Positions 11,743-16,097 of a stretch of 64,000 nt of DNA are shown here, in pieces. The position numbers and the translations under genes are program-made. The first letter of the stretch is position 1. Each line of letters begins with the position of its first letter. Under the pieces are notes generated by a model. The model was not told the origin of the DNA, searched no databases, and saw only the letters and a list, made by a program, of their open reading frames with translations. The stretch comes from Streptomyces fulvoviolaceus (GTDB lineage: Bacteria; Actinomycetota; Actinomycetes; Streptomycetales; Streptomycetaceae), in NCBI RefSeq assembly GCF_000718165.1, contig NZ_JOEY01000016.1, forward strand, positions 186,001 through 250,000. Reading direction: 5' to 3'.

Positions 11743-12882
11743 GTGACGTTCCCGGTAGTCGGCATGGTCGGCGGGGGGCAGCTCGCTCGTATGACACACG
11801 AGGCGGGCATCCCGCTCGGCATCAAATTCAAGCTTCTCAGTGACACCCCACAGGATTCCGCGGCGCAGGTCGTCAGCGATGTCGTCATCGGCGACTATCG
11901 CGACCTCGACACGCTGCGTGACTTCGCGCGGGGCTGCGACGTGATCACCTTCGATCACGAACACGTACCCACCGAGCACCTGAGGGCCCTGGAGGCGGAC
12001 GGTATCCCCGTCCGCCCCGGCCCCGACGCGCTCGTGCACGCCCAGGACAAGGGCGTGATGCGGGCGAGGCTCGACGCGATCGGGGTGCCGTGCCCACGGC
12101 ACCGCATCGTGAGCGACCCGGCGGACGTGGTCGCCTTCGCGGCGGAAGGCGACGGCTTCCCGGTCGTCCTCAAGACCGTCCGCGGCGGCTACGACGGCAA
12201 GGGCGTGTGGGTCGTCGACTCCGTCGAGGAGGCCGCGGACCCCTTCCGCGCCGGCGTGCCCGTGCTCGCCGAGGAGAAGGTCGACTACGTCCGTGAGCTC
12301 GCCGCCAATGTCGTACGGTCCCCGCACGGCCAGGCCGTCGCCTACCCGGTGGTCGAGTCCCGGCAGGTGAACGGCGTCTGCGACACGGTGATCGCCCCGG
12401 CCCCCGACCTGGACGAGACCCTGGCGCTGCGGGCCGAGGAGATGGCCCTGCGCATCGCCAAGGAACTGGACGTCGTCGGCCACCTCGCCGTCGAGCTGTT
12501 CCAGACCCGCGACGGCCGCATCCTCGTCAACGAGCTCGCGATGCGCCCGCACAACTCGGGCCACTGGACGCAGGACGGCGCGATCACGTCCCAGTTCGCC
12601 AACCACGTCCGCGCGGTCCTGGACCTCCCGCTCGGCGACCCCCGCCCGCGCGCGAAGTGGACGGTCATGGTCAACGTGCTCGGCGGTGACTACCCCGACA
12701 TGTACTCCGCGTATCTGCACTGCATGGCCCGTGACCCCAAGCTGAAGATCCACATGTACGGCAAGGACGTGAAGCCCGGACGCAAGGTCGGCCACGTCAA
12801 CACCTACGGCGACGACCTGGACGACGTCCTCGAGCGCGCACGTCACGCAGCCGGCTACCTGAGAGGCACGATCACAGAATGA
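11743..12882 (+). CDS. purK: 5-(carboxyamino)imidazole ribonucleotide synthase PurK
   Basis: This 379-residue ATP-grasp enzyme converts AIR, bicarbonate and ATP to N5-CAIR in purine synthesis. The N-terminal [12 protein letters not shown] nucleotide motif, [13 protein letters not shown] in the ATP-grasp fold, and [26 protein letters not shown] near the metal site are all present. GTG at 11743 begins directly before the first strand; 30 further in-frame codons upstream have no family character. Its stop overlaps purE by four bases (ATGA), so the two products of consecutive steps are co-translated. Confidence 0.95.
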
Positions 12883-13403
12883 GCCCCGTTGTTGGCATCG
12901 TCATGGGGTCGGACTCCGACTGGCCCGTCATGGAGGCCGCCGCCCAGGCCCTCGACGAGTTCGAGATCGAGTACGAGGTCGACGTCGTCTCCGCGCACCG
13001 CATGCCGCGCGAGATGATCGCGTACGGCGAGGAGGCGGCCGGGCGCGGACTCAAGGTGATCATCGCGGGCGCCGGGGGCGCCGCCCACCTCCCGGGCATG
13101 CTCGCCTCGGTCTCCCCGCTGCCGGTCATCGGCGTGCCGGTCCCGCTGAAGTACCTCGACGGCATGGACTCGCTGCTGTCGATCGTGCAGATGCCGGCCG
13201 GTGTCCCGGTCGCCACCGTCTCCGTCGGCGGCGCGCGCAACGCCGGTCTGCTCGCGGCCCGGATCCTCGCCGCCCACGACGAGGAACTCCTCCGCCGTAT
13301 GCGCGAGTTCCAGCAGGAACTCAACGACCAGGCCACCGAGAAGGGCAAGCGCCTGCGGACCAAGGTCGAGGGCGCGGGCAACGGCTTCGGCTTCGGGAAT
13401 TGA
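12879..13403 (+). CDS. purE: N5-CAIR mutase PurE
   Basis: This 174-residue class I PurE converts N5-CAIR to [18 protein letters not shown], the catalytic SAHRMP and [11 protein letters not shown] motifs are intact. ATG overlaps the purK stop. The C-terminus is shaped by an insertion: the stop codon TGA is part of the TTGAA that ends an IS element, so the last residue (Asn) is the element's doing. Removing the element between its TTGAA end and the GTGAA at 14757 would give ...GGG AAG TGA, ending in Lys at the same length. Confidence 0.95.
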
Positions 13404-14756
13404 ATGCTCCTCCTCGTACCGAGGGGGATTCCTGGCTCACGCCGCTCGGTCGCTCGGCGAGCGGTCGAGTCTTACGCGATCGGCACCAGCCGGGTTCAGA
13501 CCAGCCCGGACGAGCATCACGCGTGCGGAGTTCTTGTCCCTGGGGGATACGGCTCCGCAGGCAATGCAGGTGTAAGTACGTTCCGAAAGAGGAAGTGCGT
13601 GCTTGGTTCTCGCTCCGCACTGCGCGCAGTCCATCGTGGTGTGCGCGGGATGGACGAGACGGACGTCACGCCCGTGCTTGCGGCCCATCTCGATCAGGGC
13701 CCGCTTGGTTGCGCCGATAGCCGCATCGGCGGCCTTGCGTGCCCTGGTGGTCCTGGCGAGGAACTTGGGACGGAAGTCCTCGACCGCGATTGCGTCATGA
13801 TCCCTGACCACTTTCTTTGCCCACTTGCGGCCAGTGTCCTGCCGCTGGCGGGCGACTTTCTTGTGGGCCTTGGCCCGCAGCCGTTTCGCTGCCCGGTAGC
13901 CCTTCGAAGCAGTCTGCCCGCTCTTCGGCTTGCGGCGGGCTGCCATCCGGTCGTACCGGGTCACCGTTTTCCTGGCCTTCCGGCCGTGTTCTGCGTGGGG
14001 GAGGTCGTGTGCGTCGCTGGTGGTGGTCGCGGTGTCCTTCACTCCCCAGTCGATCCCGATCACCGCGCCCGTGGTGGGCAGGGGCATCACCTCTGCCGGA
14101 ACAACGAACGAGCAGTACCAGTGGCCCAGGGAGTCCTGGTACACGCGGACCGAGGACGGTTCCGCCGGAAGATTCCGCGACCACACCACCGTCAGCACGA
14201 TCCCGCCCGCCAGATGCAGGCGGCCTTGCTGCAGCCGAAAGCCGCGTCTGGTGTAGCTCAGTGTCGGTCGCGCCTCGTACTTCTTCTTGTACTTCGGCAT
14301 CCCGGCGCGGCGATGTATGGGCAGCCCCTGCCCGATGTCCTTGAGCGCCTTGGCCCGGGACTTGCCGAAGTCGCGAATGATCTGCTGCTGCGGAACCGAA
14401 CCACCCTCTCGCAGCCATGCGTTGCTCGCCCTTGCCTCGGTGAGCATGCGGTCGAGGCGGGCCGGGCCACACGCCTCGCCGGCCCGGTGGGCTTTTGTGG
14501 AACGGGCGACACACTCGTTCCAGATCCACCGGCAACGAGCCCACTCGGCATCGAGCGCGGCACCGGCGGTCGACGAAACGCGCAGCCTGTAGGTGTTGCG
14601 GGTATGCCTTTCCAGTGCAGCCACCCTCAGCTCCGCCACGCTCTCACTCCCTTGGCAATCCTCCGCGGAATACCGCGACGGCCCCGGTCTTTGGAGGAGA
14701 CCGTACGTACGACGGCCGCACACCCGTGCCCGATCTCGCGATCACCATGCCAAGTG
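13400..14756 (-). mobile_element. IS200/IS605-type element carrying only tnpB
   Basis: The element's right end, read on the minus strand, shows GGAATCCCCC, a hairpin (13412-13416 pairs with 13420-13424), GGAGGAGCA and finally TTCAA. This matches the typical right end of IS605-group elements and the 3' end of their guide RNAs. At the left end TTCAC (14761-14757 on the minus strand), a common target motif of this group, abuts a 6-bp inverted repeat (14742-14747 with 14755-14760). No tnpA is present, so movement would need a helper transposase. Boundaries are inferred from these motifs and from the purE reconstruction. Confidence 0.8.
13437..14639 (-). CDS. tnpB: TnpB, RNA-guided RuvC nuclease of an IS605-type element
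   Basis: This 400-residue TnpB has all three RuvC acids: Asp197 in GIDWGVKD, Glu287 in IAVEDFRPK and Asp368 in PRDKNSAR. The zinc finger has Cys338, Cys341, Cys358 and Cys361. TnpB proteins cut DNA next to a target motif, guided by an RNA made from the element's right end, and help keep the element in place. GTG at 14639 follows GGGAG by 7 bases and begins the conserved RHTRNTYRLRVS region; an upstream in-frame start adds 28 unlike residues. The gene ends 34 bases from the purE stop, leaving just room for the RNA 3' end. All catalytic residues are kept, so it may be active. Confidence 0.92.
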   Translation of the reverse strand: MAELRVAALERHTRNTYRLRVSSTAGAALDAEWARCRWIWNECVARSTKAHRAGEACGPARLDRMLTEARASNAWLREGGSVPQQQIIRDFGKSRAKALKDIGQGLPIHRRAGMPKYKKKYEARPTLSYTRRGFRLQQGRLHLAGGIVLTVVWSRNLPAEPSSVRVYQDSLGHWYCSFVVPAEVMPLPTTGAVIGIDWGVKDTATTTSDAHDLPHAEHGRKARKTVTRYDRMAARRKPKSGQTASKGYRAAKRLRAKAHKKVARQRQDTGRKWAKKVVRDHDAIAVEDFRPKFLARTTRARKAADAAIGATKRALIEMGRKHGRDVRLVHPAHTTMDCAQCGARTKHALPLSERTYTCIACGAVSPRDKNSARVMLVRAGLNPAGADRVRLDRSPSDRAA

Positions 14757-14918
14757 GTGAACAGCGGCACGCGTGTTCGCGTCTCTCCGGTGTTGCCGGC
14801 CTGCTGCCCGGTCCCCGCGCCCATGAACCGGTAGGGCGACACTTCGCGTCGCGACGCCAGGTTCCGATTCCTCCCCCGGCGACAACGCCGGGGCCTCCGC
14901 AAGAAACAGGTGATGCCC

Positions 14919-16097
14919 ATGACCTCACTCGACGAAGCCCGGCAGTTCCTGCGGGAGTTCCCCGTCGTCGACGGTCACAACGACCTCCCCTGGGCGCTGC
15001 GCGAACAGGTCCGCTACGACCTCGACGCGCGGGACATCGCCGCCGACCAGAGCGCCCATCTGCACACCGACCTGGGCCGGCTGCGGGCGGGCGGCGTCGG
15101 TGCGCAGTACTGGTCGGTGTACGTCCGCTCGGACCTGCCCGACGCGGTGCCGGCGACGCTGGAACAGATCGACTGCGTACGGCAGTTGATCGACCGCCAT
15201 CCGGCCGACCTGCGGGCCGCGCTCACGGCCGCGGACATGGAGGCGGCGCGCGCGGAAGGCCGTATCGCCTCTCTGATGGGCGCCGAAGGTGGCCACTCGA
15301 TCGCCAACTCCCTCGCCACGCTGCGGGGGTTGTACGCGCTCGGCGTCCGCTACATGACCCTCACCCACAACGACAACGTGGACTGGGCGGACTCGGCGAC
15401 GGACGAGCCGGGCGTCGGGGGCCTGTCGGCCTTCGGGCGTGCGGTGGTGCGCGAGATGAACCGCGAGGGCATGCTCGTCGACCTCTCGCACGTGGCGGCG
15501 ACGACGATGCGGGACGCGCTGGACGCGACGCTCGCGCCGGTGATCTTCTCCCACTCCTCCTCGCGGGCCGTGTGCGACCATCCCCGCAACATCCCCGACG
15601 ACGTCCTGGAACGTCTCCAGGGCAACGGCGGTATGGCGATGGTCACCTTCGTCCCGAAGTTCGTGCTCCAGGCGGCGGTGGACTGGACGGCCGCCGCGGA
15701 CGAGAACATGCGCGAGCACGGCTTCCACCACCTCGCCACCACCCCGGACGCGATGAAGGTCCACCGCGCCTTCGAGGAGCTGCACCCGCGTCCGGTCGCC
15801 ACGGTGTCGACGGTGGCGGACCACCTGGACCACATGCGCGAGGTCGCGGGCATCGACCACCTCGGCATCGGCGGCGACTACGACGGCACGGCCTTCACGC
15901 CGGACGGCCTGAACGACGTCTCCGGCTATCCGAACCTGATCGCGGAGCTCCTCGACCGCGGCTGGTCCAAGTCCGACCTCGCCAAGCTGACTTGGCGGAA
16001 CGCGGTACGGGTCCTGGGCGCCGCGGAGGACGTGGCCCGCGGCCTTCAGACGACGCGGGGGCCGTCCAACGCGACGATCGGGTCGCTCGACGGCTGA
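14919..16097 (+). CDS. Zinc dipeptidase (peptidase family M19, renal dipeptidase type)
   Basis: This 392-residue TIM-barrel hydrolase should cleave dipeptides, including L-Xaa-D-Xaa forms. The binuclear zinc ligands are all visible: His20 and Asp22 (DGHNDLPW), Glu123 (GAEGGHS), His191 (DLSHV), His212 (FSHSSSR) and Asp320 (GIGGDYDG). ATG at 14919 was chosen for the spacing from AAGAAACAGG; ATG at 14913 or GTG at 14910 would add two or three residues. A homologue in S. coelicolor has been structurally studied as a dipeptidase (established knowledge). The gene ends inside the remains of the old-yellow-enzyme gene on the other strand. Confidence 0.93.

Follow-up and report, generated by a model that had tools for sequence, protein, structure and literature searches.

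Stop codons of host genes are over-occupied by a family of TnpB elements that includes the insertion at purE of Streptomyces fulvoviolaceus

Stop codons of host genes are strongly over-occupied, beyond chance and across the whole family, by the tnpB-only elements described here. In 64 of 152 copies with unique flanks, the element lies exactly on the TGA of a host gene, compared with 132 of 6051 NTCAC sites of a null set. One of these elements is found in the window, i.e., the complete analysed stretch of 64,000 nucleotides from Streptomyces fulvoviolaceus. It is inserted on the stop codon of purE, which it rebuilds with its own last bases, and the empty form of the site is present in related genomes. 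The sequence next to its right end, which would serve as the guide of the nuclease, is the end of the purE coding sequence.

The element and its ends

The element lies between purE and a dipeptidase gene, on the strand opposite to both.

12879..13403, plus strand: purE, AIR carboxylase (Pfam AIRC, 1.1e-65)
13380..13399, minus strand: predicted guide, the first 16-20 nt beyond the right end, which are the last purE codons (from position and analogy with the ISDra2 reRNA)
13400..13403, minus strand: right-end terminus TCAA, which replaces the target TCAC and restores the TGA of purE
13400..13502, minus strand: conserved reRNA-like scaffold with two variable hairpins, overlapping the 3' end of tnpB (39-copy alignment, covariation)
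13400..14909, minus strand: tnpB-only IS200/IS605-type element, 1510 bp (extent of homology, copies at unrelated loci)
13437..14639, minus strand: tnpB, 400 aa, RuvC residues D197, E287 and D368 (Pfam OrfB_IS605 and Cas12f1-like_TNB)
14640..14909, minus strand: left end region, with the tip CTGTTTCTTGCG common to many other copies
14757..14761, minus strand: TTCAC internal to the element (copies at unrelated loci, aligned tips, empty relatives)
14874..14893, minus strand: subterminal hairpin of the left end with 8-bp arms (direct reading of the sequence)
14910..14914, minus strand: target, or transposon-adjacent motif, ATCAC, which adjoins the left end
14919..16097, plus strand: M19 membrane dipeptidase (Pfam Peptidase_M19, 2.7e-115; next gene after purE in relatives, from which the start codon is inferred)

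The right end is as originally predicted. On the minus strand, the element ends in TTCAA at 13400 and supplies the T of the last purE codon AAT (13398-13400) as well as the stop TGA (13401-13403). Among the family copies, whose ends were placed by script, 148 of 152 terminate in TCAA. The other four terminate in TCAG, which is real in L013 and a misplaced end in at least one copy (L099).

The left end had been predicted at 14756, next to the TTCAC at 14757-14761. This placement was wrong, as the TTCAC lies inside the element, the real end is at 14909 and the real motif is the ATCAC at 14914-14910. Several observations lead to this boundary. With copies at unrelated loci in other genomes of the genus, the similarity reaches window position 14913 and thus comprises the element and TCAC (e.g., query 150-1664). 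The aligned left tips commonly read (N)TCAC followed by CTGTTTCTTGCG, and NTCAC adjoins the left end in 30 of 37 copies when left ends are counted by a strict rule, a looser one having given false ends inside the left hairpin. In addition, the M19 match starts 2-87 nt past the purE stop in 27 of 28 relatives with an empty site (410 nt in L127), which assigns the additional 153 bp to the element. Where both ends could be placed (34 family copies), the length is 1508-1548 bp.

The element fits the tnpB-only (IS1341-like) type of IS200/IS605 elements. Its TnpB carries the RuvC triad and, as read from the sequence, the zinc-finger cysteines of a C-terminal zinc-binding domain. The best-scoring solved structures are an AI-designed nuclease (9yyg, E 3.6e-30) and the TnpB of ISDra2 (8h1j, E 4.1e-26). 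The RuvC residues D, E and D are kept in 135 of the 136 intact copies of the family. Insertion takes place 3' of a short, fixed target and without target duplication, as seen from empty and filled purE sites and from the NTCAC count. Subterminal hairpins are present at both ends (left from the sequence, right from alignment and covariation). The window element has no Y1 tnpA of its own, and a search with 14 tnpA queries gave a single match, at L201, among the 152 flanked copies. The tnpA-like match near L201 is about 72 aa long and 60-75% identical. Five Y1 matches are found elsewhere in the window's genome. A 5-kb contig (G000:C126) holds L004, a tnpB fragment of the same family, 87% identical over 141 aa.

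The empty purE site

The purE gene was found in 58 of 61 genomes. Thirty loci were given, one of them the window; the other 29 are the top-scoring ones among 57 further genomes with a match, and 28 of the 29 are readable (L128 was excluded). None of the 28 has an interrupted purE. AAG is the last codon in 26 of them; 22 end in AAG TGA and 24 in any xxG TGA. The insertion therefore turned AAG-TGA into AAT-TGA, replacing Lys by Asn and leaving gene length and stop unchanged. An ancestral purE of equal length ending in Lys had been predicted, and the aligned ends of the element-free relatives agree with it and with insertion on the stop. The excision from which that prediction was derived (13400-14756, joining GGGAA to GTGAA) is right for the Lys and wrong for the junction, which is really GGGAA + GTGATGCCCATG, with excision up to 14909. 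The Lys holds in spite of the misplaced left end because both candidate junctions start with GTGA. Nearly the predicted junction is found in L107, which reads GGGAAG TGA TCCC ATG.

Through the insertion, the gap between purE and the M19 gene was widened by 1.5 kb. The left tip together with GTGA gives CAGGTGA immediately upstream of the M19 ATG at 14919, a Shine-Dalgarno-like sequence (14900-14921). The dipeptidase gene, though separated from purE, may retain a ribosome site in this way.

Age and selection at purE

The same purE stop is filled in genome G128 (L013) and in S. phaeochromogenes NRRL B-1248 (L144), two loci which are 96.2% identical across 4.7 kb. In the tnpB tree, the three purE copies form a monophyletic group. 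The element of G128 ends in TCAG and that of S. phaeochromogenes in TCAA; Asn is kept in both. Between the window and these two copies, dS is 0.37-0.39 for tnpB, 0.31-0.36 for purE and 0.39-0.45 for the M19 gene; over longer host frames the match is looser (host dS 0.23-0.27 vs tnpB 0.40-0.42). These values fit an element inherited along with its neighbourhood, with tnpB evolving no slower than purE. Judging from the sequence comparisons, the insertion is old and shared, and tnpB is under purifying selection, with a dN/dS of 0.18-0.20 against the two other purE copies and similar values for M19 (0.18-0.21). The stable niche that had been proposed for the element at purE is in line with this.

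Alternatively, the host could have kept the element at purE for a regulatory effect on purE and the dipeptidase gene, exerted by its antisense RNA or by the distance it puts between the two. The copy common to several species and the dN/dS of about 0.19 would suit such a function, but the same pattern recurs at dozens of other genes. TldR-type regulators are nuclease-dead and have lost the RuvC active site. No such loss is seen in the window's TnpB, where D197, E287 and D368 are all present, and we consider host exaptation very improbable.

Stop codon occupancy in the family

The family was collected from 172 loci, comprising two copies from the window's own genome, 30 loci of the first search (including the window), 60 further places among the matches listed by that search and the best 80 of 366. 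The four sets overlap in genomes, and the copies were chosen by their similarity to the window element. A right end could be placed in 163 of the 172; the nine others and 11 duplicate flanks were dropped, which left the 152 unique flanks. A host gene was called where 80 codons ran without a stop and the GC content by codon position resembled that of Streptomyces, a rule by which short or atypical genes are missed. The null sites were taken from 800 kb of 20 genomes, in fixed mid-contig stretches.

The excess on stop codons is found with each way of counting. With one copy per host gene (gene groups, purE copies merged by hand), 53 of 141 are on the stop; related copies are not independent, and Fisher p-values for such comparisons are consequently too small. 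A second null, drawn from the flanks of the copies and the window, has 61 of 2827 sites on stops. An earlier right-end rule, by which 33 of the 172 loci were lost, gave 55 of 131, and the first count of 91 copies gave 37 against 25 of 1362 null sites. With the change of rule, two loci earlier found on a stop (L062, L212) came to be among the nine dropped, and two others (L099, L203) changed class. A Pfam search of 42 of the 64 host ORFs points to varied genes; peptide deformylase, FolD, MoeA, UbiD and AIM24 are among the families listed.

A second TnpB family is represented in the window's genome. Its members L005 and L006 are 32-33% identical to the window TnpB and have the right end TCAA, and a Y1 tnpA adjoins L006. 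From 59 loci, 30 unique ones were retained, 27 of them with a placed right end. Nine of the 27 are on stops (about 0.6 expected), four are 1-100 nt past a stop (about 1.1 expected) and six are in coding sequence. As the positions just past stops are also raised, the exactness of stop siting is clear only in the first family.

Possible loss of harmful insertions

Of the 152 copies, 29 lie within coding sequence in a different frame or on the opposite strand, vs 3772 of the 6051 null sites. Such depletion would be left by a neutral filter, in which the transposase uses any TCAC, genic insertions are lost and those on stops survive by rebuilding TGA, the guide being irrelevant. The raised positions just past stops in the second family speak for it as well, and so does the lack of a difference in stop occupancy between broken copies (8 of 16) and intact ones (56 of 136). 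This comparison does not favour nuclease-dependent retention. If harmlessness alone decided, enrichment would be expected past the stops too; it is weak in the first family and present in the small second one. In the first family, the near-equally safe sites 1-100 nt past a stop hold 14 copies, at least one of which (L099) is a misplaced end, vs 8.94 expected, but the exact stops hold 64 vs 7.0. The neutral filter is an unlikely account of the pattern.

Possible target preference of the transposase

Alternatively, the enrichment might arise at insertion, if the Y1 TnpA prefers a longer motif or the state of the DNA at gene ends. At the first position past the target, A or T is far more frequent than in the genome, which is true of copies outside stops as well (60% vs 872 of 6051 null sites), and some stops are filled in several genomes by non-monophyletic copies. 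However, after matching of the first guide base, 7.0 of the 152 copies would be expected on stops vs the 64 observed, and among the 30 copies with a left-end TCAC, matched for the preceding base as well as for the first base of the guide, 13 are observed vs 1.17 expected. The A/T preference after the motif accounts for only about 7 of the 64 stop copies.

The presumably younger copies also point away from such a preference. Among copies that have a close relative elsewhere, 22 of 72 are on stops, vs 42 of 80 for those without one (p 0.008), where the 88% cut was chosen after the bins had been seen. From the closest to the most distant bin, the share is uneven (1/6, 13/31, 8/35, 28/49, 14/27, 0/4). 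All in all, an origin of the enrichment in TnpA preference is unlikely, though an additional preference of the transposase could add to it.

The last codon before an occupied stop is CTG in excess (23 of 64 vs 12 of 132). Selection for a synonymous change was considered and rejected, as other synonymous classes are depleted and the excess is accounted for by the preference for A or T at the start of the guide. In the tnpB tree, stop copies and other copies show no significant clustering, with nearest neighbours agreeing in 85 of 149 cases (mean of the shuffles 75.8; 70 of 500 reach 85). Controls free of TnpB are scarce, as only two of 31 tnpA loci (L361, L364) are without a TnpB match within the stretch.

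Stops used repeatedly

Besides purE, there are five stops that non-monophyletic copies occupy in two to five genomes each. Reuse is firm in three cases, namely AIM24 with five copies, L043/L147/L148 (L043 and L148 form a pair, L147 stands apart) and L166/L193. In L020/L041 and L050/L081, one tnpB of each is broken, which makes the tree placement unreliable.

A search for the AIM24 gene found it in 98 of 101 genomes; five genomes have a filled AIM24 stop (L064, L091, L098, L149, L199). In the best 30 of the 98 matching genomes, the gene ends in CTG TGA with NTCAC in every case, and in 25 of these 30, the match to one or more of the five observed guides extends over at least 16 nt. In most pairs of AIM24 copies, dS is higher for tnpB than for the host, which suggests separate arrivals; in L064/L098, the dS of tnpB is lower. 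Gene conversion among the copies at reused stops may have contributed.

Right end, predicted guide and target

The right end was aligned over 13400-13529 and its counterparts in 39 of the 152 copies. Of the 27 predicted pairs of the scaffold, 15 have changed on both sides in one or more copies of this alignment and still pair. An Rfam search of the right end gave three matches up to E 1, all far below the gathering scores. The predicted guide, by analogy with ISDra2, is TTCCCGAAGCCGAAGCCGTT, the end of purE. The original prediction of the purE tail as guide is supported by its position and by this analogy; for any TnpB element in this place, position would direct the guide at purE in the same way.

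In 11 of 36 other members of the genus, TCAC followed by the first 17 guide nucleotides has a single exact occurrence, which is at purE; there is no such match in the window's own genome or in 24 genomes of other genera. Among the 29 purE relatives, 11 match the guide for at least 18 nt beside NTCAC, and the others mismatch earlier. With TCAC and 12 nt, the own genome has two best matches. One is the occupied site itself, with TCAA, and the other is at C35:83090, with TCAC and one mismatch in the guide. With TCAA at the occupied site and TCAC beside the guide sequence in relatives, the element end would spare its own site and the targets would be open in some relatives.

Proposed explanation

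The target TCAC is GTGA on the other strand, a codon's third base followed by TGA, and the right end TCAA is TTGA. As both are in the same register, xxG TGA becomes xxT TGA on insertion. At purE, a tnpB-only element entered 3' of ATCAC at the stop (GTGA), on the strand opposite the gene. With TCAA in place of TCAC, stop and length are kept and the motif that would license cutting of the filled site is lost. The stop would be the sole place in a gene where a harmless insertion is combined with a guide in conserved coding sequence, and while the gene end stays conserved, TnpB could target empty alleles again and again. We infer the production of the reRNA, cleavage, homing and the role of conserved guides in the enrichment. 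That the stop codon joins a harmless site to a conserved coding guide, with TnpB re-targeting empty alleles, is our best reading, and we hold it to be slightly on the probable side.

Conserved guides would account for the exact siting on stops. They are modestly supported by the higher share on stops of copies without close relatives and by the presence of a highly conserved stop, that of AIM24, among the reused ones. Two results do not favour them, namely the equal occupancy by broken and intact copies and the uneven trend with age. More tentatively, and with less confidence than even chances would give, stops may be an evolved niche of TnpB elements of the TCAC/TCAA type. Their right end would mimic the target motif, rebuild the stop and erase the cutting motif, and their guide would become conserved coding sequence, so that conserved genes would carry, at their 3' ends, homing cassettes that need no splicing.

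Relation to known systems

Tn7 inserts at glmS, and some integrative elements rebuild the 3' ends of conserved genes. As in these systems, the conserved gene end would be a safe address; they rely on unrelated recombinases, whereas the address here is set by the motif of the transposase and also, should TnpB be active, by an RNA guide.

In ISDra2 of Deinococcus radiodurans, TnpB is an RNA-guided nuclease, the last ~16 nt of its RNA derive from the flank, and the authors propose that TnpB re-installs the transposon (Karvelis et al. 2021; PMC8612924). The window element shares with it the RuvC residues D/E/D, the guide (here predicted) from DNA beyond the right end and the cutting expected beside the target motif. 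It differs in its motif (NTCAC here, TTGAT in ISDra2) and in having no tnpA, which ISDra2 has. Haloarchaeal IS1341-type elements, as described in PMC3119063, likewise consist of tnpB alone, with near-terminal palindromes and a short targeting sequence. The available parts of that paper and of PMC7290912 make no mention of stop codon occupancy. For plasmids, a gene drive of insertion sequences by TnpB was described (Mears et al. 2025; PMC11870625). In that study, TnpB is likewise proposed to act against element-free copies; those are plasmid copies, whereas chromosomal gene ends would be concerned here. In the literature searched, in which few subscription papers were covered, no title or abstract on TnpB or IS605 insertion on stop codons was found.

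The occupancy of stops gives a countable rule for where one large TnpB group persists. It ties the transposon end (TCAA vs TCAC) to the neutrality for the host gene and the conservation of the guide together, and may let elements target conserved genes without harm to the host. The reason why TnpB is retained becomes testable, as empty and filled stops coexist in related Streptomyces.

Further groups

Two other groups of tnpA-tnpB elements were seen. In L133, L137, L139, L140 and L369, a further IS605 group, TCTAC stands beside the left tip; its complement GTAG contains the stop TAG in the same register. The near-identical tnpA-tnpB copies L351-L357 are found in one genome (G145) and are probably recent. 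Three of them (L352, L356, L357) have the right end GTCAC and the apparent left motif CATC, whose complement contains ATG and no stop. L351-L357 are a possible contrast family.
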